From: a virus
Strand: one strand, 5' to 3'
Virus record (IMG/VR): IMGVR_UViG_3300031857_000758
Coordinates: 1 to 33,381 of that record
Length of the DNA stretch: 33,381 nt
Part shown: positions 18,487 through 33,381 of the stretch, piece after piece
Numbering within the stretch: the stretch's first letter is position 1
Layout of the letters: each line of letters opens with the position of its first letter
Program-made: the position numbers and the translations under genes
The notes under the pieces: generated by a model
Told to the model about the DNA's origin: nothing
Databases searched by the model: none
What the model saw: the letters and a program-made list of their open reading frames with translations, nothing else

Positions 18487-18499
18487 CCACTATCTAAAC

Positions 18500-18529
18500 T
18501 TGACTTTGTGCCAAAATCTATGTTATACT
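18500..18529 (+). promoter_or_regulatory. Endolysin promoter
   Basis: TTGACT (18500-18505), 18-base spacer, TATACT (18524-18529) with a TGT extension. This is the best conventional promoter in the late half. It lets the endolysin be made independently of the opposite-strand structural genes. The leader begins with a six-base-pair hairpin (ACACCT/AGGTGT, 18538-18553, loop AAAA) followed by an AAGGAGG ribosome binding site. Confidence 0.75.
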
Positions 18530-18576
18530 TGGTTTAGACACCTAAAAAGGTGTTATTGTTTTCTAAGGAGGAAACT

Positions 18577-19140
18577 ATGATTAAATTTATCGAAAGAAAC
18601 AAAGAGATCATTAGCACACTCAGTATTGTAGCATTAGTAACTGTTTTTTCAAACTCTGCTAATGCCTCAATAGATCTTGATACGAAAAACAACTTGAGCA
18701 TAGAAAAGTCTCAGACAGCAGATACCGCCTCGAAAGAGGTTTTTTTGGTTTCTAAGGCTAAAAAACTAGAGAGTTTTGAGAATAAGGTTTCTCTGACTGA
18801 TCTAGAACTAAAAGAACTGCTTTCATTAGTAGGCTTCAAAGGTCAAGACCTTGTAGTCGCTTGGGCAGTGGCTAAAAAAGAGTCTAATGGCCGACCATTG
18901 GCTTTTAATGGCAATCATAAGACTGGAGACTCATCTTATGGTATGTTCCAAATTAATATGATTGATTCCCTTGGTCCTGATCGTAGAACCAAGTTTGATC
19001 TTGAATCAAATGCTGAATTGTTCAATCCCGTCAAAAATGCGGAAATAGCATACTATATGACTAAGGGCGGAGAAGACTGGTCCTCATGGAAAGGCATTAC
19101 TCCAAGAACTAAATTTTGGATGACTAAATTTCCTAAGTAA
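18577..19140 (+). CDS. Secreted lysozyme-like endolysin (transglycosylase fold)
   Basis: The protein has 187 residues from the ATG at 18577, chosen because AAGGAGGAAACT stands directly before it; an upstream in-frame ATG at 18550 has no such site. Residues 1-31 are a Sec signal peptide (basic N-terminus, IISTLSIVALVTVF core, cleavage near SANA-S). Residues 80-175 have the lysozyme/SLT pattern: AVAKKESNGRP with catalytic Glu102, SSYGMFQIN (119-127) and NPVKNAEIAYYM. It would cleave peptidoglycan glycan strands at lysis or during entry. It is the only plus-strand gene in the late region and ends at a strong terminator. Confidence 0.78.
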   Translation: MIKFIERNKEIISTLSIVALVTVFSNSANASIDLDTKNNLSIEKSQTADTASKEVFLVSKAKKLESFENKVSLTDLELKELLSLVGFKGQDLVVAWAVAKKESNGRPLAFNGNHKTGDSSYGMFQINMIDSLGPDRRTKFDLESNAELFNPVKNAEIAYYMTKGGEDWSSWKGITPRTKFWMTKFPK

Positions 19141-21433: not shown

Positions 21434-22019
21434 CCACATTAATAAGTAAATGAACTGACCTTAATCCTTGAACTGGTGTCCAGGTTTCTCCATCAAATTC
21501 TAATGCTTTAATGTCAATTGGCAGGGAAACAATGTCTCCGTCTGTAAAAATTGCTCTTACGGATATATTTGATGCAATAACCTTTGATTCTGAGTTAAGG
21601 ATTGAGTACTGCACATTAAATTGATCAGAAGAAAGTGTAGAAGAAAGGCTTGAAGATCCAGTAATACTTACAACTGGAATGTTGATCGTTGTCTCTCCAT
21701 TTGAATCAAATGTCCTATTATAGTTATTTGAGTATATGTTTGGGAGCAATTTCATAATCGCTCTCCAGGTATTTGAACCAGCGTAGGCTTGGTATTGATA
21801 CACAAATCTATACTCTTTATCTGGGTCTTGTGGATCAATATTAATATATAAATCTAACAACTGAACATCTCCATCTGGAGTATTATCATTAGGATTTCCT
21901 AGTCCAGTATAAATCATACTTCCTCTAGGACCCTCTGGTCCAAAATCAACCTCAACATTTACTGTTGTTGGTCCGCCCAATACGGTTAAATCATCTACTG
22001 CTAAAATTGGATTTGTCAT
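21429..22019 (-). CDS. Structural protein with GPEGPRG linker
   Basis: The protein has 196 residues and no firm family. Residues 20-35 (VNVEVDFGPEGPRGSMIYTG) include a short collagen-like stretch often found before a fibre beta domain. The remainder is beta-rich (INIPVVSITGSSSLSSTLSS). Its ATG overlaps the stop of the gene at 22016 (ATGA). Most likely a baseplate or fibre component. Confidence 0.55.
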   Translation of the reverse strand: MTNPILAVDDLTVLGGPTTVNVEVDFGPEGPRGSMIYTGLGNPNDNTPDGDVQLLDLYINIDPQDPDKEYRFVYQYQAYAGSNTWRAIMKLLPNIYSNNYNRTFDSNGETTINIPVVSITGSSSLSSTLSSDQFNVQYSILNSESKVIASNISVRAIFTDGDIVSLPIDIKALEFDGETWTPVQGLRSVHLLINVV

Positions 22020-22423
22020 GGTGTATTTGTAGTTACCTGATCTGTTACTGTAATTACTCCAGTAAGAAGTGTATAAACCAAAGGATAAGGGGTTGCACTT
22101 TTCTGAATTTGAACATCGTATACATAGTCTGTTCCTGCTGTCATAACTGCACCGTCTGCTGGCCTAATGGCACATTTAATATAAGATCCATTATCAGAAA
22201 TTGTTGCATAACATTGATGCTGATTTGAAAGTCCTGCAGAACCTCTTGCTGTTGAAAATTTAAATATTGCAGTTTGTGTTCCACTAGTTCCAGAGTCTAG
22301 GTCTGGCCCAATAAATGAAGTCAAATCAAATGCGCTTCCATCAGTAGATTTTTTAGGGTAGATATTAAACTCATAGGTGTCGCCCTTATAGTAGTTTATA
22401 TTAAGTGTTCCTGGAAATGCCAT
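22016..22423 (-). CDS. BppU-like beta-sandwich virion protein, copy 3
   Basis: The protein has 135 residues. YYKGDTYEFNIYPKKS near the start, a long disordered loop, then YVYDVQIQKS and LLTGVITVTDQVTTN correspond in order to the RGDT, DIQVS and GTISVLGDVT elements of the proteins at 17524 and 23263. Similarity is weaker than between those two. Leaderless start, 6 bases after TGG-TATAAT. Confidence 0.55.
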   Translation of the reverse strand: MAFPGTLNINYYKGDTYEFNIYPKKSTDGSAFDLTSFIGPDLDSGTSGTQTAIFKFSTARGSAGLSNQHQCYATISDNGSYIKCAIRPADGAVMTAGTDYVYDVQIQKSATPYPLVYTLLTGVITVTDQVTTNTP

Positions 22424-22429
22424 AGTTTT

Positions 22430-22435
22430 ATTATA
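22430..22435 (-). promoter_or_regulatory. Leaderless promoter
   Basis: TGG-TATAAT on the minus strand, 6 bases before the ATG at 22423. Confidence 0.7.
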
Positions 22436-23156
22436 CCACGCTGACGTAGACAGATTTGAAGATTACAGATGCATCAAAGTCTGTTCTGATTTGTGGAACT
22501 CCTCCGTTGCCCCAAATTTGTTGATTTTCAATAAATAACTGCTGGGTTACAGATATATCATATGTATTCTGATATTTAAAAGATCCAACCAGTTGTGCTA
22601 TTTCTTGTTTATGCGCTGGGAAAAAAGTTCTTAGCCAAACCTCTGTATTTGAGGTAAATGTTGTTAATTCAATGTTATATGTAACAAATACTTGAGAACC
22701 AATAGCAAGTCCTTTAAAATTCAACATTCTGGAATGAGAATTCCACATACTTACAGCGCCCTTCGGTAAAAATTTTTCATTGTTTTTTTCAGAAGACATG
22801 TAGAGATTTACCCAACCATCAATACCTCTTGTTGCTCCAAGCCTTATATTTGTTGGATTATCATTTATGTATGATGCCCATCCTGCTTGCTGTCCTGAAG
22901 AGGATAAAGAACTTAGTCCGTCTTTGCCTGCTGGACCTTGTAAGCCTTTTGGTCCCGCTTTTCCTTCTGGCCCCTGTGGTCCTTCTTTGCCATCTTTTCC
23001 ATCTTTACCTGCTGGTCCCTGTGGTCCTACTGGTCCAGGTACTGGGAGAAAAGATAAAGTGTTGTCTGGTAATCCAGTTGCCTGGCTCTGCTCTACTTGT
23101 GCAGCATACGAAGATTTTTTTGCACCAGGAAAGTCCATAGATTTAGAAGCAGCCAT
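22431..23156 (-). CDS. Collagen-like tail fibre
   Basis: The protein has 241 residues. Residues 41-80 are 13 uninterrupted Gly-X-Y triplets rich in Pro and Lys-Asp ([19 protein letters not shown] and on), a trimeric triple-helix shaft. The C-terminal 150 residues are a beta-rich domain ([49 protein letters not shown]), probably the tip. The start is 6 bases after TGA-GATAAT without a ribosome binding site, so probably leaderless. Confidence 0.75.
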
Positions 23157-27209: not shown

Positions 27210-27298
27210 TAGAATTCACTCTTATCTAACATAGTAGGGATTAGTACTATTATAGTGCATAGCACTGACAAGGCTAGGACAATAAGGGATAGGCTCAT
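27209..27298 (-). CDS. Tiny membrane peptide (29 residues)
   Basis: MSLSLIVLALSVLCTIIVLI then PTMLDKSEF: a single hydrophobic span with a short acidic tail. It starts 2 bases after the stop of the 67-residue gene and is coupled by TAATG to the next. The start ATGAGCCTA is the same as in the MSLS mini-ORFs of the leaders described below. Confidence 0.55.
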   Translation of the reverse strand: MSLSLIVLALSVLCTIIVLIPTMLDKSEF

Positions 27299-27827: not shown

Positions 27828-27848
27828 GTCCTAGCACGGCGTGTCGTG

Positions 27849-27864
27849 TGTGATATGCATCACA
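27849..27864. promoter_or_regulatory. Crp/GlxR-type operator 1
   Basis: TGTGATATGCATCACA, a perfect TGTGA-N6-TCACA. It is flanked by CGGCGTGTCG on the left and GACGTC on the right. Confidence 0.6.
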
Positions 27865-27903
27865 GCGGACGTCTATAGATCACCCCCTGTATACATACCC
27901 CCC

Positions 27904-27940
27904 CTATATAGACCACCCTATATAGACCCCCCCTATATAG
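27904..27940. repeat. CTATATAG iteron-like repeats
   Basis: Three CTATATAG palindromes at 27904-27911, 27918-27925 and 27933-27940, each embedded in C-rich DNA (CCC-CTATATAG-ACC) with periods of 14 and 15 bases. A degenerate GTATAC unit stands just before them. Confidence 0.65.
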
Positions 27941-28014
27941 CACGTCCCGTGTGGCGTACATCACATATGACCTATATCACAATGTCCGATTTATACCTTT
28001 TATACCCTACCATT

Positions 28015-28036
28015 TGTCAGTGGTAGGTGCTACACT
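28015..28036 (+). promoter_or_regulatory. TGTCAG-type promoter A
   Basis: TGTCAG (28015-28020), 7 bases, TGC, TACACT (28031-28036). Followed by AGTATAAAGAAAGT, a 7-bp hairpin with AGG loop (28053-28069) and the AGAAAGGA ribosome binding site. Confidence 0.7.
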
Positions 28037-28086
28037 TACAGTATAAAGAAAGTCAATCAAGGTGATTGAACTAGAAAGGAATTCAA

Positions 28087-28269
28087 ATGAATTCAAATGT
28101 AATAAACACAGTGTGTGTAGAACACACCCCTAATAAGCCTGCTATCTCAGATGTAGCAGATGAGCAATTCACTTTTTGTGAAGTTTGCGAAAATAACATT
28201 GAGCGTTGGTATAACGATACTGACCCTGAGCGTCTACCTATGTGGACAGATTGGAAAGTGTCAAAATAA
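28087..28269 (+). CDS. Small Cys-rich protein, first rightward early gene
   Basis: The protein has 60 residues. CVEH and CEVC in the first half make a plausible Cys3His metal site; the C-terminus is rich in Trp (RWYNDTDPERLPMWTDWK). Ribosome binding site AAAGGA at six bases. Coupled to the next gene by TAATG. Function unknown. Confidence 0.65.
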   Translation: MNSNVINTVCVEHTPNKPAISDVADEQFTFCEVCENNIERWYNDTDPERLPMWTDWKVSK

Positions 28270-28406
28270 TGACTAAACTAATTTGTTGCTTTTGTGAAAA
28301 AGTCTATTCTAGCGAAACCAAGTTTTGTGGTTTCTGTAATGAGTATAAAGGTCTAATGACCATAAAAGAATTTGACGAATACTACGGAGAAAGAATTTAT
28401 TCATAA
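28269..28406 (+). CDS. Tiny zinc-ribbon protein (45 residues)
   Basis: MTKLICCFCEKVYSSETKFC then GFCNEYKG. CxxC (CCFC) and CGFC pairs about ten residues apart form a classic short zinc ribbon. The C-terminus is acidic. TAATG overlaps on both sides support it as a real gene. Confidence 0.6.
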   Translation: MTKLICCFCEKVYSSETKFCGFCNEYKGLMTIKEFDEYYGERIYS

Positions 28407-28504
28407 TGAATTTCTATGAAACATTTTTTGTAAGTGGTAATGCACTATTCTGGTTTTCTATGATCTGTTTAGTAAGTGGATTTTATTTATTCGTAAAAGA
28501 ATAA
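28406..28504 (+). CDS. Tiny membrane peptide (32 residues)
   Basis: MNFYETFFVSGNALFWFSMI then CLVSGFYLFVKE: one hydrophobic, aromatic-rich span. Coupled by TAATG to the zinc-ribbon gene. It ends the first rightward cluster. Confidence 0.55.
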   Translation: MNFYETFFVSGNALFWFSMICLVSGFYLFVKE

Positions 28505-28530
28505 ATTTAATTCCCTGCAAAAAAAAATGG

Positions 28531-28623
28531 GACGTCGCCTGTGGATAACTTGTGGATAACCTATGTGATGCTTATCACAAAAATACTTTTCCGACACGCC
28601 CGAAAAACACCCTAAAATGTCAG
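28531..28623. promoter_or_regulatory. Control cassette 2
   Basis: In order: GACGTC (28531-28536), two tandem perfect DnaA boxes TGTGGATAA (28540-28548 and 28551-28559), TGTGATGCTTATCACA (28564-28579), CGACACGCCCG (28592-28602) and the TGTCAG of promoter B. All elements fit in under 100 bases. Confidence 0.7.
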
Positions 28624-28639
28624 ACCCCCCTGCTATACT
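28618..28639 (+). promoter_or_regulatory. TGTCAG-type promoter B
   Basis: TGTCAG (28618-28623), 7 bases, TGC, TATACT (28634-28639), then AGTATAAAGAAAGT, then a 9-bp hairpin with AGG loop (28655-28675), then the ribosome binding site. Confidence 0.75.
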
Positions 28640-28654
28640 TCTAGTATAAAGAAA

Positions 28655-28675
28655 GTTAAATAAAGGTTATTTAAC
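28655..28675 (+). promoter_or_regulatory. Leader hairpin, AGG loop
   Basis: GTTAAATAA (28655-28663), AGG, TTATTTAAC (28667-28675): a perfect nine-base-pair stem just upstream of the AGAAAGG ribosome binding site. Equivalent hairpins of different sequence stand at 28053-28069 and 32004-32020. Confidence 0.65.
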
Positions 28676-28679
28676 AAAA

Positions 28680-28720
28680 AAGAAAGGTTAGGTCAAAAAA
28701 TGACTAACACTAAAGAAAAA
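28680..28720 (+). repeat. 40-base dispersed repeat, copy 1
   Basis: The stretch covering the ribosome binding site, ATG and first seven codons (MTNTxEK) is almost identical, with one mismatch in about 40 bases, to 32021-32060. Confidence 0.8.
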
Positions 28721-28948
28721 GGATTTAAATTATCCTATCGTATTGAGTACAATACTAATCCTGCTTACCCTCTAATGAAAGAGTTTAGCACTTGCTTAGG
28801 AGTTATTTTTAACTCAGAAATTGAGGCTAACAATTACTTAGACCTCTTAGCCCTTAGAGGCACAATTCTAGAAACTAATCTAGAAGAAATTGAGTACACA
28901 CCTCGCAAGAGTGTCGTGTATGCTACTACTAGAAGTTGGGAGCGTTAA
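28700..28948 (+). CDS. Small unknown protein
   Basis: The protein has 82 residues, mixed alpha/beta (GFKLSYRIEYNTNPAYPLMK, ILETNLEEIEYTPRKSVVYA). No family recognised. Good ribosome binding site (AGAAAGGTTAGG). It leads the second rightward cluster. Confidence 0.65.
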   Translation: MTNTKEKGFKLSYRIEYNTNPAYPLMKEFSTCLGVIFNSEIEANNYLDLLALRGTILETNLEEIEYTPRKSVVYATTRSWER

Positions 28949-28953
28949 TCTCA

Positions 28954-29076
28954 ATGAAAGATTTCGTAGAAAAATTAGAATTAGAAACCTACTGGGAAAG
29001 TCCAGCATTAGGAATTCACCCTGATTTAGCAAAAATGCTAGATGAGGCAATAAAGAAAGGTAGTTATACTAAATGA
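28954..29076 (+). CDS. Tiny helical protein (40 residues)
   Basis: MKDFVEKLELETYWESPALG then IHPDLAKMLDEAIKKG: amphipathic helices with an acidic face. Starts six bases after the previous stop and overlaps the next start as ATGA. Confidence 0.55.
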   Translation: MKDFVEKLELETYWESPALGIHPDLAKMLDEAIKKGSYTK

Positions 29077-29237
29077 GTACACTAGTACCAATTAAATCAG
29101 TATGCGGTGCGGTTAGCACTAGCATAGACATCTATGACCTTGAGTTAAACCCTCACGGAGTTATCTGTTGCGATAACTGTAAGTCAATTATCCTATGCCG
29201 TAAGGCTTGGGATTTCTTATACAAAAAAAACAAATAA
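29073..29237 (+). CDS. Small Cys-rich protein (54 residues)
   Basis: Cys at residues 11, 32, 33, 36 and 42 (GVICCDNCKSIILCRKAW) suggest a metal site. The N-terminal half is beta-like. ATGA overlap with the previous gene. Followed directly by a terminator. Confidence 0.6.
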   Translation: MSTLVPIKSVCGAVSTSIDIYDLELNPHGVICCDNCKSIILCRKAWDFLYKKNK

Positions 29238-29249
29238 ATAAAAACCAAG

Positions 29250-29277
29250 ATCGCAGAAATAAAACTCTGCGATTTTT
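29250..29277 (+). terminator. Rho-independent terminator
   Basis: ATCGCAGA (29250-29257), loop AATAAAAC, TCTGCGAT (29266-29273), TTTTT. The loop is identical to that of the terminator at 32588. Confidence 0.88.
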
Positions 29278-29331
29278 GGGACGTCCCGTGTGATGCGAAT
29301 CACATTTAAAATACGGCGTGTCGCCTTGACT
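29278..29331. promoter_or_regulatory. Control cassette 3
   Basis: GGGACGTCCC (29278-29287), TGTGATGCGAATCACA (29289-29304), CGGCGTGTCG (29314-29323), then TTGACT (29326-29331). No DnaA box is seen here. Confidence 0.68.
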
Positions 29332-29354
29332 TTTCGCCCCTAGTCTGGTAGTCT
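29326..29354 (+). promoter_or_regulatory. Leader promoter
   Basis: TTGACT, 17-base spacer, TAGTCT (29349-29354) with TGG extension. Its transcript begins with TAAGAAAAACTAAATAAAGG and the MSLSK mini-ORF, like the leftward promoter at 27799. Confidence 0.65.
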
Positions 29355-29393
29355 TACTACATAAGAAAAACTAAATAAAGGACAAATCGGCTA

Positions 29394-29447
29394 ATGAGCC
29401 TAAGCAAATAAATGTGATACAAATCACAGTGAGCCTTAGCAAATAAG
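29394..29447 (+). repeat. MSLSK mini-ORF repeats flanking an operator
   Basis: ATGAGCCTAAGCAAATAA (29394-29411) encodes MSLSK-stop, 11 bases after AAAGGA. Next comes a perfect operator TGTGATACAAATCACA (29413-29428) and a second copy, GTGAGCCTTAGCAAATAA (29429-29446). CGGCTA and TAGCCG flank the whole unit. It lies directly upstream of promoter C. Confidence 0.6.
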
Positions 29448-29456
29448 TAGCCGAAA

Positions 29457-29478
29457 TGTCAGACCCCAATGGTAAGAT
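29457..29478 (+). promoter_or_regulatory. TGTCAG-type promoter C
   Basis: TGTCAG (29457-29462), 7 bases, TGG, TAAGAT (29473-29478), followed by TTATCAACAAAACGAAAGG. Confidence 0.7.
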
Positions 29479-29511
29479 AGTCTTATCAACAAAACGAAAG
29501 GAAGTCTAAAA

Positions 29512-29709
29512 ATGACTTACACTATAACACTAGAAACCTTTAATGGTTCTACCAAAAAAATCGCTATGCCTTCTAAGGGTGCGGTTGCTCAATTCATCTC
29601 AACTTATCCAACACAATTACCTGTTGGCGTATCTGTCAAGGTTGCTTGCGATACTCTCGGAATAAGTGGCACACTTCGTGGCACTCTTACACCTTCAAAA
29701 TCAAACTAA
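29512..29709 (+). CDS. Small unknown protein
   Basis: The protein has 65 residues: MTYTITLETFNGSTKKIAMP, then a Ser/Thr/Lys-rich remainder with VGVSVKVACDTLGISGTLRG. It reads as a small beta domain. Ribosome binding site GAAAGGAAG. First gene of the third rightward cluster. Confidence 0.62.
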   Translation: MTYTITLETFNGSTKKIAMPSKGAVAQFISTYPTQLPVGVSVKVACDTLGISGTLRGTLTPSKSN

Positions 29710-29729
29710 AGAATAGGAAATAAATAAAA

Positions 29730-29936
29730 ATGGTAAAAGTAAATCACTCTCTAAATTTCGTTACAGAATTTGACGAAACACACCCAATCGCTCAACGCTT
29801 TCTAATGCTTGACGAAATCTCACAAATCACTCTCTTAGAGTCTATGCTAAAGGAATTAATTGCGCCAGCACTTAAGCCTGCTCTTGAGGAAATTAATGCC
29901 CGTGGCTCATACGCAATTCTAAAGGTGGCAGAATAA
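29730..29936 (+). CDS. Small helical protein
   Basis: The protein has 68 residues, with FVTEFDETHPIAQRFLML and EISQITLLESMLKELIAPAL forming predicted helices. No family known. Coupled to the next gene by TAATG. Confidence 0.6.
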   Translation: MVKVNHSLNFVTEFDETHPIAQRFLMLDEISQITLLESMLKELIAPALKPALEEINARGSYAILKVAE

Positions 29937-30133
29937 TGATGACTCGTAAAGACTATGTAAAGGTTGCCGAAATTCTTAGCAATTATTTTGCCACATCTGT
30001 TTTTGATGAGCAAGGAGAAATTTTATTTGCTGATTTGGTAGATGAATTTTCTCTAATGTTTGAAACTGATAATCCAAGATTTGACGCAAACAGATTTGCT
30101 ATTGCTTGCTATAAAGAATTGGCGGGTGTGTAA
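29936..30133 (+). CDS. Small helical protein (MTRKDYVKVAEIL type)
   Basis: The protein has 65 residues (MMTRKDYVKVAEILSNYFAT, FADLVDEFSLMFETDNPRFD, FAIACYKELAG). Short proteins that open with RKDYxxxAEIL recur in tailed phages, but I know no function. TAATG overlaps on both sides. Confidence 0.62.
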   Translation: MMTRKDYVKVAEILSNYFATSVFDEQGEILFADLVDEFSLMFETDNPRFDANRFAIACYKELAGV

Positions 30134-30285
30134 TGATTTTGGATAATGGAACGCTAATCGCAATTGTAATTGCTTTAACTGGATCTCTAACAGTAATGGG
30201 TTTATTTTGGAAACAAAATATTCAACAACAAAAAGAAATTCGCAGACTTCAAGTTGCTTTGCGAACTGAACGACTTAAAAAATAA
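30133..30285 (+). CDS. Membrane-anchored coiled-coil peptide (50 residues)
   Basis: One span (LIAIVIALTGSLTVMGLFW) followed by a basic, Gln-rich coiled coil (KQNIQQQKEIRRLQVALRTE). The plan resembles Rz/spanin-like or holin-like small proteins, but it is in an early cluster. TAATG overlap with the previous gene. Confidence 0.58.
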   Translation: MILDNGTLIAIVIALTGSLTVMGLFWKQNIQQQKEIRRLQVALRTERLKK

Positions 30286-30298
30286 AATAAAAAATCCT

Positions 30299-30334
30299 GA
30301 GCAAGATTTAAAACTGCTCCACATTTAAATTTTT
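30299..30334 (+). terminator. Probable terminator
   Basis: GAGCA/TGCTC (30299-30303 and 30315-30319), or alternatively ATTTAAA/TTTAAAT (30306-30312 and 30324-30330) running into TTTT. Weaker than the terminators at 29250 and 32588 but in the same place relative to GACGTC. Confidence 0.45.
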
Positions 30335-30443
30335 CGGACGTCGGGGTCGGGCGTGTCGTCCACAGGTTTATCCACAGGCTTGCTTTTGTGAGATTTATCA
30401 CATAGGCTAAGCGTCTCACTATTTGGACTTACTCGCTAGTAAC

Positions 30444-30472
30444 TTGATAATTTATGTCTAATAGGCTAGACT
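30444..30472 (+). promoter_or_regulatory. Leader promoter in region 4
   Basis: TTGATA, 17-base spacer, TAGACT (30467-30472), followed by a GTAAGAAAAAAAATAAATAA tract like those after the promoters at 29326 and 27799. Confidence 0.6.
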
Positions 30473-30536
30473 TACACAGTAAGAAAAAAAATAAATAAAA
30501 GAAAGTCTATCTTTCTACGGCGTGTCTAACCGAAAA

Positions 30537-30558
30537 TGTCAGCCCCCTGTGATAGGAT
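30537..30558 (+). promoter_or_regulatory. TGTCAG-type promoter D
   Basis: TGTCAG (30537-30542), 7 bases, TGA, TAGGAT (30553-30558), followed by TTATCAACAAAAAAGAAAG, like promoter C. Confidence 0.7.
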
Positions 30559-30591
30559 AGAATTATCAACAAAAAAGAAAGAGGTTGGCAA

Positions 30592-30795
30592 ATGTCAGCA
30601 AATGTCTATACAATAGAAAACCTACTTGTAGGAAAACAGTATCGCTCCCGAACACTTACGGGAGAAATTATCTCAGCAGAGATACACCCTAAAGCCGTAT
30701 GGTATCAGGGTTGCGAAAGTTATCTAGTGGAAGTGCGCCCTAGTAATTTTGGAAAAGTCGTATGTCGCACAGTAGCAGTAAAGGTAGAAAACTAA
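30592..30795 (+). CDS. Small beta-barrel-like protein
   Basis: The protein has 67 residues. YTIENLLVGKQYRSRTLTGE and SYLVEVRPSNFGKVVCRTVA suggest a small beta barrel that begins with an L-x-V-G-K turn, as in the proteins at 27301 and 32293. Ribosome binding site GAAAGAGG. Leads the fourth rightward cluster. Confidence 0.62.
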   Translation: MSANVYTIENLLVGKQYRSRTLTGEIISAEIHPKAVWYQGCESYLVEVRPSNFGKVVCRTVAVKVEN

Positions 30796-30796
30796 A

Positions 30797-30949
30797 ATGG
30801 GAGTAATGAAAACACTATACACAGAAATAGAAAATTGCCAAATGTGTTTTGGTCAAGGTTGGCACTATTGGGCGCAGGGTGAGGACTTTGATACAGAGTC
30901 TTGCGATTGTAATCCCCACCAATTATTTATCACTAAGGAGGATAACTAA
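30797..30949 (+). CDS. Small zinc-binding protein (50 residues)
   Basis: CQMCFGQGWHYW resembles one half of a DnaJ-type zinc finger (C-x2-C-x-G-x-G), and CDCNPHQ supplies two further Cys. Possible start also at Met4. The ORF ends with an AAGGAGG that serves the next gene, and its stop overlaps that start (TAATG). Confidence 0.6.
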   Translation: MGVMKTLYTEIENCQMCFGQGWHYWAQGEDFDTESCDCNPHQLFITKEDN

Positions 30950-31167
30950 TGAACGAATACTCATACTCAATAACCGCTACCTATGATAGTGATACCGCCC
31001 CTCATTGGGTTGGTCGTTATTCAGACGCAATTAGCGCAGTATCAGAGTGGAATAAAATTGTGGATTGGGGATTCGCTAACGAATACGCAACCTACAATTT
31101 CTCAGAGCCGTCAGGCAAAATGGTGACTAAGATTTTTTATCGTGATGGAAAGGTTGGTGGAAAGTAA
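30949..31167 (+). CDS. Small unknown protein
   Basis: The protein has 72 residues: MNEYSYSITATYDSDTAPHW, then a Trp/Tyr-rich helix and a beta hairpin (MVTKIFYRDGKVGG). A ferredoxin-like or DUF-type small phage fold is possible. Strong ribosome binding site (AAGGAGG) inside the previous gene. Confidence 0.62.
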   Translation: MNEYSYSITATYDSDTAPHWVGRYSDAISAVSEWNKIVDWGFANEYATYNFSEPSGKMVTKIFYRDGKVGGK

Positions 31168-31307
31168 TGCCACACTATTCTTTTGACACCTTCATAACTA
31201 TTGAGGCAGATAACTATGATGAGGCAATAGATGTCTTTGACTATAAACTAAAAACAGGAATAAACAGAAGCGATGTCTATGTCGCAGAAATTGAGGAAAT
31301 AAAATAA
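31167..31307 (+). CDS. Small acidic protein (46 residues)
   Basis: MPHYSFDTFITIEADNYDEA then IDVFDYKLKTG and VYVAEIEEIK. The beta-alpha-beta pattern with acidic surface resembles the previous protein's plan, so they may be related. TAATG overlaps on both sides. Confidence 0.55.
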   Translation: MPHYSFDTFITIEADNYDEAIDVFDYKLKTGINRSDVYVAEIEEIK

Positions 31308-31603
31308 TGGGAAGCATAACAGCAATTGGATTAGCAGATAGCGTGTTAGATTTAGAAACACAGTTAGCGTATCACTTACAGGGTAATCATTACCCGCCCG
31401 TTCCGCTATCTATGGTGCAACCTTGCATAGAGGCTATTGACGCATACTATGATGAGGACTATGACCGATTTATTGCTATGCCTGAAGGCGTATTCTATAA
31501 GGGAATGAGCCACGCCCCAGCAAGGGCTATTGTAGAGCAACACCACCTATCTTGGTTTATTGACCCAGTAGATAACTATGAAGATGAGGAAGAAAATGTC
31601 TGA
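31307..31603 (+). CDS. Unknown 98-residue protein
   Basis: Helical, His-rich protein (AIGLADSVLDLETQLAYHLQ, QPCIEAIDAYYDEDYDRFIA, SHAPARAIVEQHHLSWFIDP) with an acidic tail. Several His could bind metal, but no family is recognised. Coupled at both ends. Confidence 0.6.
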   Translation: MGSITAIGLADSVLDLETQLAYHLQGNHYPPVPLSMVQPCIEAIDAYYDEDYDRFIAMPEGVFYKGMSHAPARAIVEQHHLSWFIDPVDNYEDEEENV

Positions 31604-31838
31604 TACAATGATTGCTATGGATTTAATACACGCAGATAATTTAATGCCAGATCAACTAATGTTGGGTGATTTAATAAAAATAGGAGATGACATTGTTGAA
31701 ATTATTTTTATTGAAAGCGATTCTACTGGTGATAACTATGACATACAAACCGAAAATGAATTTGGTGAAAAAGAAATAACGCAGTATAGTTATACTGATT
31801 TAATTCCGTTGTATGTTTTTATAGAACAAGAAGAATAA
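31596..31838 (+). CDS. Small acidic beta-rich protein
   Basis: The protein has 80 residues from the ATG at 31596, chosen because GAGGAAGAAA precedes it and it overlaps the previous stop (ATGTCTGA); an upstream in-frame ATG at 31578 would overlap more. LMLGDLIKIGDDIVEIIFIE begins a small barrel, as in the proteins at 27301 and 30592. Confidence 0.58.
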   Translation: MSDTMIAMDLIHADNLMPDQLMLGDLIKIGDDIVEIIFIESDSTGDNYDIQTENEFGEKEITQYSYTDLIPLYVFIEQEE

Positions 31839-31864
31839 TTTTTATGCACTTCCCCGCATAAAAA
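31839..31864. other. Perfect 9-bp hairpin after fourth cluster
   Basis: TTTTTATGC (31839-31847), 8-base loop, GCATAAAAA (31856-31864). It stands where the other clusters have terminators but has no T-run after the stem on the plus strand, so its role as terminator is uncertain. Confidence 0.6.
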
Positions 31865-31867
31865 ATC

Positions 31868-31973
31868 GACGTCGCTCTCGGGCGTGTCTGTGCACAACCT
31901 GTGGATAACTCTTGTGACGCTTATCACAAATCTTTGACTAGTCAGACCACACGACACGCTGGCTATTTGTCAG
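31868..31973. promoter_or_regulatory. Control cassette 5
   Basis: GACGTC (31868-31873), CGGGCGTGTC (31879-31888), perfect DnaA box TGTGGATAA (31900-31908), TGTGACGCTTATCACA (31913-31928), CGACACGC (31952-31959), then the TGTCAG of promoter E. Same order as in cassette 2 apart from the added GGCGTGTC on the left. Confidence 0.7.
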
Positions 31974-31989
31974 TCCTGCGTGATAGACT
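31968..31989 (+). promoter_or_regulatory. TGTCAG-type promoter E
   Basis: TGTCAG (31968-31973), 7 bases, TGA, TAGACT (31984-31989), then AGTATAAAGAAAGT, a 7-bp hairpin with AAC loop (32004-32020) and AAGAAAGG. Confidence 0.72.
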
Positions 31990-32020
31990 TTCAGTATAAA
32001 GAAAGTGAGAAACTCTCACT

Positions 32021-32060
32021 AAGAAAGGTTAGGTCAAAAATGACTAACACTAATGAAAAA
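32021..32060 (+). repeat. 40-base dispersed repeat, copy 2
   Basis: Nearly identical to 28680-28720; spans ribosome binding site, start codon and codons for MTNTxEK. Confidence 0.8.
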
Positions 32061-32147
32061 AAGAAAGTCGCTTATTGCGAAAAACACGAACAAGAATTCT
32101 CAGGTATCTGTGGTTCTTGTATAGGAGAATTTGGATACTTTGACTAA
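32040..32147 (+). CDS. Tiny zinc-binding protein (35 residues)
   Basis: MTNTNEKKKVAYCEKHEQEF then SGICGSCIGEFGYFD. Cys-x2-His and Cys-x2-Cys make a compact zinc site. The first seven residues are shared with the protein at 28700 only because of the 40-base repeat. TAATG overlap with the next gene. Confidence 0.6.
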   Translation: MTNTNEKKKVAYCEKHEQEFSGICGSCIGEFGYFD

Positions 32148-32293
32148 TGGATACCTATAACAGAATTCTTAAAGAGCAACAAGAAAAAAGAATTGCTCAA
32201 TCAATAAAAGATAAGGCAGTTATTGAGGCTATGTTCTCTAATAACAGTCGCCCCCTTAATAATAATCACGAACTAAAGAAAGTAGAAAACTAA
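32147..32293 (+). CDS. Small helical protein (48 residues)
   Basis: MDTYNRILKEQQEKRIAQSI then a basic helix and an Asn-rich tail. Coupled by TAATG at both ends. No family known. Confidence 0.55.
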   Translation: MDTYNRILKEQQEKRIAQSIKDKAVIEAMFSNNSRPLNNNHELKKVEN

Positions 32294-32487
32294 TGTCACT
32301 ATCAATAATAAATAAAATTACTGTTGGAAAATTATTTATCTCCAACGATAAAAACTATCTCGTTAAAGAGATTCTTGAGGTTAATGATGAAACTGAATCA
32401 GTAACCGCAACACTCACTAATTCTCAAGGTGAAGAAGTATTTTTCACAGGTGGATTTTCTCAATGGTTTGAAGGGTTGGTTCAGTAA
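32293..32487 (+). CDS. Small beta-barrel-like protein
   Basis: The protein has 64 residues. KITVGKLFISNDKNYLVKEI and TLTNSQGEEVFFTGGFSQWF fit the same L-x-V-G-K/D barrel plan as the small proteins at 27301, 30592 and 31596. TAATG overlaps on both sides. Confidence 0.6.
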   Translation: MSLSIINKITVGKLFISNDKNYLVKEILEVNDETESVTATLTNSQGEEVFFTGGFSQWFEGLVQ

Positions 32488-32576
32488 TGAAAACACTACA
32501 AGAAAAATTAGATTTGGTTGCTAAAGAATTAGAACCAATACTATGGGAATTGTTAGATGAAATCGAAAAAGAATAA
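32487..32576 (+). CDS. Tiny acidic helix (29 residues)
   Basis: MKTLQEKLDLVAKELEPILW then ELLDEIEKE: a single amphipathic acidic helix. Coupled by TAATG. Followed by a terminator. Confidence 0.5.
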   Translation: MKTLQEKLDLVAKELEPILWELLDEIEKE

Positions 32577-32587
32577 ATAAAAAAAAG

Positions 32588-32613
32588 ATTGCAGAATAAA
32601 ACCTGCAATTTTT
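32588..32613 (+). terminator. Rho-independent terminator
   Basis: ATTGCAG (32588-32594), loop AATAAAAC, CTGCAAT (32603-32609), TTTTT. Directly followed by GACGTC. Confidence 0.88.
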
Positions 32614-32763
32614 GACGTCGCGGTCGGGTGTGTCTGGGGATAACCTGTGGATAACTTTAGTATACTCACCAGTAACCATAATAAAATTTCTTTACGACGG
32701 GGTTTTTTATTTCCCAGATCCTGGGCGAAAAATTTTTTGTGATTTTAATCACACAATCTAGAT
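32614..32763. promoter_or_regulatory. Control cassette 6
   Basis: GACGTC (32614-32619), CGGGTGTGTC (32625-32634), a near-match TGGGGATAA and a perfect DnaA box TGTGGATAA (32646-32654), an AGTATACTCACCAGTA element also seen at 27656, a small CCCAG/CTGGG hairpin (32713-32725), and TGTGATTTTAATCACA (32738-32753) just before the next promoter. Confidence 0.65.
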
Positions 32764-32793
32764 TTGACATTTTTGTTAGATGTGTGTTAGTAT
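32764..32793 (+). promoter_or_regulatory. Leaderless conventional promoter
   Basis: TTGACA, 18-base spacer, TAGTAT (32788-32793) with TGT extension, and exactly 6 bases to the ATG at 32800. The operator at 32738-32753 ends 10 bases upstream of the -35, a classic activator position. Confidence 0.75.
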
Positions 32794-32799
32794 TACTAT

Positions 32800-32949
32800 A
32801 TGAAGAAAACAAATGAGGAATTACGCAGGCTTATGGAATTACGCCGTAGCAATGCTGCCTCTGCCGTGCCTTCAAAGAAAGCCTACAATCGTAGGAAATG
32901 TCAGTCCGAACTGATACAATTAAAGAAATATAAGGGAGACCCACTATGA
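32800..32949 (+). CDS. Small basic protein (49 residues), leaderless
   Basis: MKKTNEELRRLMELRRSNAA then SAVPSKKAYNRRKCQSELIQ: Arg/Lys-rich and helical, so nucleic-acid binding is plausible. No ribosome binding site; the promoter places the transcript start at the ATG. Its end contains AAGGGAGA for the next gene and overlaps it as ATGA. Confidence 0.62.
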   Translation: MKKTNEELRRLMELRRSNAASAVPSKKAYNRRKCQSELIQLKKYKGDPL

Positions 32950-33122
32950 CATATGAAAACGATGAAATGCTAGATGAATACTACGCAACAACCTGCCCTG
33001 AATGTAAAGAAAATTCCGTTGACGCATATGAAGAAAAATGCACTCATTGCTTACTAGAAGATATGTCCGCACACTATAATGAAGATATCGCACTAGAAAT
33101 GAGCCTTGGACTTGACTACTAA
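32946..33122 (+). CDS. Small acidic zinc-ribbon protein (58 residues)
   Basis: TTCPECKENS and EKCTHCLLED give two CxxC pairs 12 residues apart, a zinc ribbon in a strongly acidic protein. ATGA overlap with the previous gene and AAGGGAGA upstream. Function unknown. Confidence 0.62.
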   Translation: MTYENDEMLDEYYATTCPECKENSVDAYEEKCTHCLLEDMSAHYNEDIALEMSLGLDY

Positions 33123-33381
33123 TACACTTAAACTAAAACGATCAAATGATAGAAAGGTGGCTAACCTTGTCACAAAAAATGGAAAGCAAGCCGCAATCGC
33201 AAACACTTTTGGTTTACCTGCTGGAAAGGCTTACTCGTGCCCTGGTGCAACCAGTGTGTGTGAGTCGGTTTGCTACGCAGGAAAACTCGAAAAACTCTTC
33301 AAGGGTGTAAAGGCTAACCTCTTACACAATTGGGACCTGCTAAAAGACGCTAATCAATTAACTATGGAGACATTGTTAACT
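33112..33381 (+). CDS. Gp88-like protein, 3' end cut by window edge
   Basis: Ninety residues are visible. AYSCPGATSVCESVCYAGKL followed by EKLFKGVKANLLHNW is the Cys signature of the actinophage Gp88 family (gene product 88), whose function is not known. The only in-frame start before the conserved part with reasonable overlap is the TTG at 33112 (11-base overlap with the previous gene); a GTG at 33157 would shorten it by 15 residues. The four visible Cys (in SCPGATSVCESVCYA and around) suggest metal or cluster binding. The C-terminal part lies outside the window. Confidence 0.7.
   Translation, partial: MTTNTLKLKRSNDRKVANLVTKNGKQAAIANTFGLPAGKAYSCPGATSVCESVCYAGKLEKLFKGVKANLLHNWDLLKDANQLTMETLLT

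Follow-up and report, generated by a model that had tools for sequence, protein, structure and literature searches.

Introduction

Promoter-rich early blocks and repeated control sequences are already known in bacteriophages (PMC6873191; PMC3203893). In the Bacillus phage SPO1, the host-takeover module is a compact block of early small genes that is served by several promoters and lies apart from the structural genes (PMC6873191), and in cluster K mycobacteriophages the short SAS/ESAS repeat precedes many unrelated non-structural genes and is conserved in relatives (PMC3203893). Here, we analyzed a 33.4-kb virus fragment (IMG/VR record IMGVR_UViG_3300031857_000758; the whole stretch is hereafter called the window) in which an earlier note, made from the letters alone, had described six repeated control cassettes in front of rightward clusters of small genes. 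Our analysis confirmed the six cassettes and supported a modular reading of them, and it makes it probable, judging from sequence features, that host CRP together with DnaA acts on extended -10 promoters of a modular early regulon.

Similar to the SPO1 module, the window holds a compact small-gene block with several promoters of its own; repeated arrays of host-regulator sites are not described in the part of the SPO1 account that was available (PMC6873191), and the toxicity and early expression of the genes are putative in the present case. The cassettes resemble SAS/ESAS in being repeated before unrelated actinophage genes and conserved across relatives, whereas SAS is a single 13-bp element at the ribosome-binding site and the cassettes are multi-site regions upstream of the promoter; the SAS consensus GGGATAGGAGCCC, whose known position is a few bases before start codons, had no match with up to two mismatches in the window. 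The stoperators of cluster A phages are binding sites of the L5/L1 repressor with the consensus GGTGGMTGTCAAG, dispersed over the genome. As in that system, asymmetric short sites recur here in intergenic DNA, but they are confined to one block instead of being spread genome-wide; GGTGGMTGTCAAG was not above chance in the window (one match with two mismatches, chance mean 0.94), and no repressor was identified in these phages. Moreover, the CRP/GlxR regulons of Mycobacterium and Corynebacterium share with the cassettes the palindrome TGTGA-N6-TCACA, and the CRP of the candidate hosts is orthologous; unlike those regulons, the sites are virus-borne, with 7-10 palindromes per phage fragment compared to 0-1 per candidate host genome. 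WhiA targets carry a GACAC motif (PMC3781837), and the cassette motif GGCGTGTC contains its reverse complement, GTGTC, within a longer phage core (GCGTGTCG), a resemblance that we take only as a lead to WhiA as the GGCGTGTC binder. In the literature searched, a limited library, we found no description of a comparable phased array of host-regulator sites.

Six control cassettes share a set of enriched motifs

The cassettes add up to 1,034 bp (3.1% of the window) and combine GACGTC (P), a GGYGTGTC-type site (R), the CRP site TGTGA-N6-TCACA, the DnaA box TTATCCACA and a promoter. Motif positions were checked in all six, and each cassette was present where it had been reported. Relative to the counts for the whole window, the cassettes contain all six GACGTC, all seven CRP sites, all five DnaA boxes, seven of the eight GGYGTGTC and five of the seven forward matches to TGTCAG-N10-TANNNT, a concentration with binomial p values from 6e-7 to 3e-11; GGYGTGTC or its complement occurs in every cassette. 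The observed counts were not reached in any of 2,000 dinucleotide-shuffled versions of the cassettes, with shuffle means of 0.002 for the CRP site (seven observed) and 0.012 for the DnaA box (five observed, perfect 9-mers in cassettes 2, 4, 5 and 6). Besides, prior-free k-mer enrichment in the intergenic DNA of ten relatives recovered the same motifs, led by GCGTGTCG (z 52), GGGACGTC (47) and GGCGTGTC (44), with TGTGGATA and GTCAGACC also among the top 8-mers and the DnaA box in the list, and added a further motif, AATGTCCGA.

Some elements of the original description had to be refined. The similar motif order holds for cassettes 4-6 (P-R-DnaA-CRP-promoter) but not for cassette 1 (R-CRP-P), cassette 2 (P-DnaA-DnaA-CRP-inverted R-promoter) or cassette 3 (P-CRP-R-promoter-CRP-promoter), and cassettes 1 and 3 have no DnaA box. 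Each cassette does have a promoter, although usually not as a -35/-10 pair but as an extended -10 with an upstream AWWTGTCAG; a TTGAC-like promoter is found additionally or instead in cassettes 3, 4 and 6. No related coding sequences were seen between clusters except for a single marginal match of 16 residues (E 0.02-0.03), but cassettes 2 and 5 are paralogous (71% over a shared 185 bp) into the first codons. Most cassette pairs can be aligned over short pieces only.

All cassettes read on the forward strand. Cassette 1 (27837-28036) begins with R (27838-27845), a CRP site (27849-27864) and GACGTC (27868-27873), followed by a CRP-like site with one mismatch (27950-27965), AATGTCCGA (27981-27989) and the promoter TGTCAG-N10-TACACT (28015-28036). 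Cassette 2 (28531-28639) has GACGTC at 28531, two DnaA boxes (28540-28548, 28551-28559), a CRP site (28564-28579) centred 62.5 bp from the -10, an inverted R (28593-28600) and the promoter TGTCAG-N10-TATACT (28618-28639). Cassette 3 (29278-29478) holds GACGTC at 29280 and two CRP sites (29289-29304 and 29413-29428), each 52.5 bp from its -10, with R (29315-29322) and the promoter TTGACT-N17-TAGTCT (29326-29354) between them and the second promoter at 29457-29478; direct repeats, GAGCCTWAGCAAATAA (29396-29447), flank the second CRP site and are kept in relatives. Cassette 4 (30337-30558) carries GACGTC at 30337, R (30350-30357), a DnaA box (30368-30376), a CRP site (30387-30402) 51.5 bp from GATAAT, the promoter TTGGAC-N17-GATAAT (30423-30451), a second R (30519-30526) and a second promoter (30537-30558). 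Cassette 5 (31868-31989) comprises GACGTC at 31868, R (31881-31888), a DnaA box (31900-31908), a CRP site (31913-31928; 63.5 bp from the -10), the near-R sequence CGACACGC (31952-31959) and a promoter (31968-31989); here, as in cassette 2, a DnaA box lies 4 bp ahead of the CRP site. Cassette 6 (32614-32793) contains GACGTC at 32614, R as GGTGTGTC (32627-32634), a DnaA box (32646-32654), a CRP site (32738-32753; 42.5 bp from the -10) and the promoter TTGACA-N18-TAGTAT (32764-32793), which immediately precedes the ATG at 32800 and predicts a leaderless mRNA.

CRP sites are helically phased to extended -10 promoters

The consensus obtained from 98 promoters is AWWTGTCAG-TCCC-N3-TGnTAnAAT, an extended -10 with a conserved element just upstream and no -35, in which the search pattern itself had set TGTCAG and TA...T. 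The distances from the centre of the CRP site to the -10 fall at 41.5-42.5, 51.5-52.5, 61.5-63.5 and 72.5-73.5 bp, one helical turn apart (Rayleigh R about 0.70 at 10.0-10.5 bp; p is around 1e-5 or lower across 26 distinct types, whose groups are not fully independent). Phasing persisted when one value was used per orthologous group (p 0.0004-0.005) and in the six window values alone (p about 0.001).

A scan of 2.9 million viral contigs for the composite TGTGGATAAC-N3-TGTGA-N6-TCACA returned 45 stretches, and the loci newly fetched by this DnaA-CRP composite had a G+C content of 0.34-0.39 throughout. In the independent set retrieved by the DnaA-CRP pattern, for which neither promoter nor phase was used, a TGTCAG promoter lay within 90 bp in 34 of 43 modules, and the spacings were 62.5/63.5 (28 modules) and 73.5/74.5 (6 modules), with none between. 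Such phasing would be the expected trace of activation that depends on the sites and acts from a single helix face. Compared to class I sites of Escherichia coli, the absolute register of the CRP sites is off by roughly 3 bp. A strict promoter-plus-leader pattern found nothing in the viral contigs, as the pattern was too narrow.

In two near-complete genomes, G003 (118 kb) and G031 (112 kb, with the early stretch wrapping the contig end), the cassette grammar is essentially confined to a single early-type block of ~8-11 kb. All strict-form TGTCAG promoters of these genomes share one strand and fall within some 7-10 kb, and the same stretch holds seven of seven CRP-type sites in G003 and all except one in G031.

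Relatives conserve the control sites and exchange whole units

Portal and motif searches led to a large freshwater clade of relatives, and the same cassette grammar was found in at least 14 related IMG/VR records with an early block. Records G001, G003, G004, G010 and G012 were obtained through a portal match (G001 also had a motif match) and were therefore not selected by motif alone. GP88 serves as a marker of the early block, and CRP-type sites were present in every searched record with GP88. The idea that records free of CRP sites contradict the finding was rejected: those checked also have no GP88, so their sequence probably does not extend over the early block. No CRP-type site occurs in two more distant actinophages, DSL-LC01 and Streptomyces phage Yaboi, and a nucleotide search against named phages gave no match.

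When upstream regions of orthologous first genes were aligned, column conservation was 0.85 for CRP sites, 0.89 for promoters and 0.81 for DnaA boxes, compared to 0.58 for other columns (p 2e-14, 1e-11 and 2e-7, respectively). The GACGTC columns were weakly conserved (0.70, p 0.009), and GACGTC lies close to only about one quarter of the 43 DnaA-CRP modules; it is a lineage-restricted part. The GGCGTGTC columns had no positional conservation in these alignments (0.52), from which we conclude that this motif is kept in number but shifts in place.

The proposal that cassette and genes are gained or lost together was borne out by unit 5 (31868-32609, forward strand), which consists of cassette 5, genes at 32040-32487 and a stem-loop at 32588-32609. 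The unit is present in the window, G022, G001, G031, G032 and G035, where the gap between the flanking genes is 950-1,150 bp, and absent from five relatives, G024, G010, G033, G034 and G036, where the gap is 103-221 bp. In G024, the sequence matches the end of unit 4 and then cassette 6, and the overlap is the 43-bp cassette head (GACGTC to DnaA box) that is 86% identical between cassettes 5 and 6. In G012, one of the unit 5 genes has the first position instead, immediately downstream of a cassette, and cluster order is changed in G010, G023 and G032. Taken together, the presence and absence of unit 5, its relocated gene, the junction and the changes in order show that cassettes and genes are gained, lost and moved together as units. 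In G023, cassette 3 was also found to enclose a small gene, which has a copy of the shared R/TTGACTTTT segment on either side.

Proposed control by host CRP and DnaA and alternative explanations

The cassettes probably serve as early promoters, modular in build, in a clade of actinobacteriophages of lytic type, in which each unit would stand alone with regulator sites, promoter, structured leader, small-gene cluster and stem-loop, and the clusters may be co-expressed as one regulon. A host protein of the CRP/GlxR family would bind TGTGA-N6-TCACA upstream of the -10, at distances that differ by whole helical turns, and recruit the RNA polymerase of the host to a promoter with an extended -10 but without a good -35, DnaA beside the CRP site would modulate this action, and GGCGTGTC, often beside the -35 position, and GACGTC are putative sites of further factors. 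As every unit carries its own cassette, recombination between similar cassettes could delete, insert or move it with its control unchanged. The sequences show the enrichment, spacing and conservation of the motifs, their confinement to one block, the gain and loss of units and the structured leaders; we infer the bound proteins, activation by their binding, the early timing and the host.

A phage-encoded CRP was sought and rejected, since PF13545 (the CRP helix-turn-helix domain) was found in none of the 15 phage records searched. Seven phage records encode a WhiB-family protein, and relatives of the portal occur in Streptomyces phages; both findings indicate that the phages probably infect actinobacteria, a placement at phylum level. 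Most genomes of the candidate hosts, low-GC freshwater actinobacteria, encode the CRP helix-turn-helix; in the one CRP tested, the alignment with Mycobacterium tuberculosis CRP runs end to end (E 7e-77) with an identical recognition helix, GASRETVNKALADFA, and GlxR entries also match it. Dinucleotide likeness is a loose pointer to the same group; the search for portal genes in GTDB genomes found no host, and tRNA matching against 297 actinobacterial genomes gave at best 92% identity over part of one tRNA, which is not decisive.

Several observations weigh against control by host CRP and DnaA. Exact TGTGA-N6-TCACA sites hardly occur in 26 candidate host genomes (0-1 per about 1.3 Mb), so the host may use degenerate sites or belong to another lineage, or a protein other than host CRP may be the binder. 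A host-wide GACGTC/GGCGTGTC network was unsupported, with no such enrichment in two sampled candidate hosts: GCGTGTCG occurs 0 times in 0.26 Mb of G040 and 6 times in 0.54 Mb of G039 (3 intergenic), and GACAC was not enriched in the intergenic DNA of these two candidate hosts. CRP sites of the cassette 1 type, at 57.5-58.5 bp, do not keep the helical phase, and for some CRP-type sites no promoter could be recognised in range. Early timing is suggested by gene size, orientation and analogy. The earlier note had named two refuting outcomes, motif counts no higher than in shuffled sequence and relatives that keep the genes but not the motifs. Overall, neither was seen, as the counts far exceed those of shuffles and CRP sites, promoters and DnaA boxes are kept better in relatives than the intergenic DNA around them; but GACGTC is missing from several relatives that retain the genes and the position of GGCGTGTC drifts, which partly fits the second outcome.

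The only exact CRP site in the acI genome G039 (L419 12629-12644) precedes two membrane genes that look respiratory by eye, a hint of the host's own CRP regulon.

Some of the observations that weigh against host control would suit sites that are operators of a phage-encoded repressor or early activator, with a convergent likeness to CRP and DnaA sites, so that the regulon would be real but phage-controlled, for example shut off after the early phase. The scarce use of the exact site by candidate hosts, their apparent lack of GACGTC/GGCGTGTC networks, the phage-encoded WhiB-family protein and the frequent position of GGCGTGTC about 30 bp from the -10, beside the -35, the expected binding place of a repressor or class II activator, agree with this explanation. 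Nevertheless, the palindrome is the full actinobacterial CRP/GlxR consensus, often a few bases from perfect DnaA boxes, none of the 15 records has a phage CRP, and first-wave promoters need host factors or virion proteins, which leaves phage operators unlikely. Arrays acting mainly as decoys that titrate host DnaA and CRP, or as auxiliary origins with secondary effects on transcription, would account for the DnaA boxes in most cassettes and for the parts that an origin-like region of G022 (about 21.6-22.6 kb) has in common with them; this seems quite improbable, as decoys need no helical phasing to the -10 and cassettes 1 and 3 have no DnaA boxes. Finally, recent duplication of one ancestral promoter segment, with cassettes serving mainly as recombination joints and motifs as leftover homology without a working regulon, would explain the likeness of cassettes 2 and 5 and of the heads of 5 and 6, as well as the G024 joint in such a head, but it is very improbable given that motifs and spacing persist in pairs alignable only in short pieces and that functional columns are better conserved than the rest across relatives.

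Beyond control of the cassettes by host CRP and DnaA, cAMP-CRP (energy and carbon), DnaA (replication status) and possibly host WhiA with phage WhiB may be combined at the early promoters to read the state of the host, so that takeover would start only, or fastest, in the right growth state and the circuit would spread gene by gene as a self-contained module; this extension is possible but doubtful. In lakes, freshwater actinobacteria belong to the most abundant bacteria, and how their phages control genes has hardly been studied. If host CRP and DnaA act as proposed, the early promoters of a virus would be wired to global host regulators by a fixed modular grammar, showing how a phage adds and drops takeover genes within one regulon, providing a list of candidate early genes and promoters for dozens of uncultured phages, and offering a way to test whether CRP and DnaA let phages sense the physiology of their hosts.

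Leaders, gene clusters and other features

The predicted leaders carry hairpins that the earlier note had not listed. Many first genes have a 5' leader hairpin at the same place after the promoter but with differing stem sequences (mean z -2.3 for 16 distinct leaders), as in units 1 (28052-28071), 2 (28655-28675) and 5 (32004-32020) on the forward strand, and these three stand directly after TATAAAGAAA. In many first genes, a second inverted repeat, also new to the description, closes around the ATG with a sequence that varies by gene (for example GAGAAC-AAAT-GTTCTC); in unit 1 it is GAATTC-AAAT-GAATTC (28079-28094), with forward-strand equivalents at 28687-28708, 29502-29518, 30584-30599 and 32028-32048. 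This repeat distinguishes first from internal genes (p 0.013) and is a possible element of control at the level of translation. A terminator-like stem-loop closes cluster 2 (29250-29273), and similar ones lie at 31841-31862 and 32588-32609. An Rfam scan of the window gave no match.

The leftward genes of the window are structural genes (protease, portal, ribonucleotide reductase), and the rightward small genes begin at 28.1 kb. On the forward strand, cluster 1 spans 28087-28406 (genes 28087-28269 and 28269-28406), cluster 2 28700-29237, cluster 3 29512-30285, cluster 4 30592-31838 and cluster 6 32800-33381, the last ending in a cut GP88 (PF17338) gene at 33121. Nine scanned cluster proteins had no PHROG match. 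A TGTCAG-N10-TANNNT promoter on the reverse strand (27249-27270) stands ahead of leftward small genes and recurs in relatives.

The origin-like region of G022 (21673-22560; L205 about 1673-2560) contains GACGTCCGACGTC, CAAACCT-type repeats, TTACGA repeats and three DnaA boxes. TTACGA followed by a T run and CCC occurs in cassette 6 (32691-32702), in another cassette (G022 18493-18640) and in this region, and similar groups of DnaA boxes were found in G024, G031, G032, G033 and G035.

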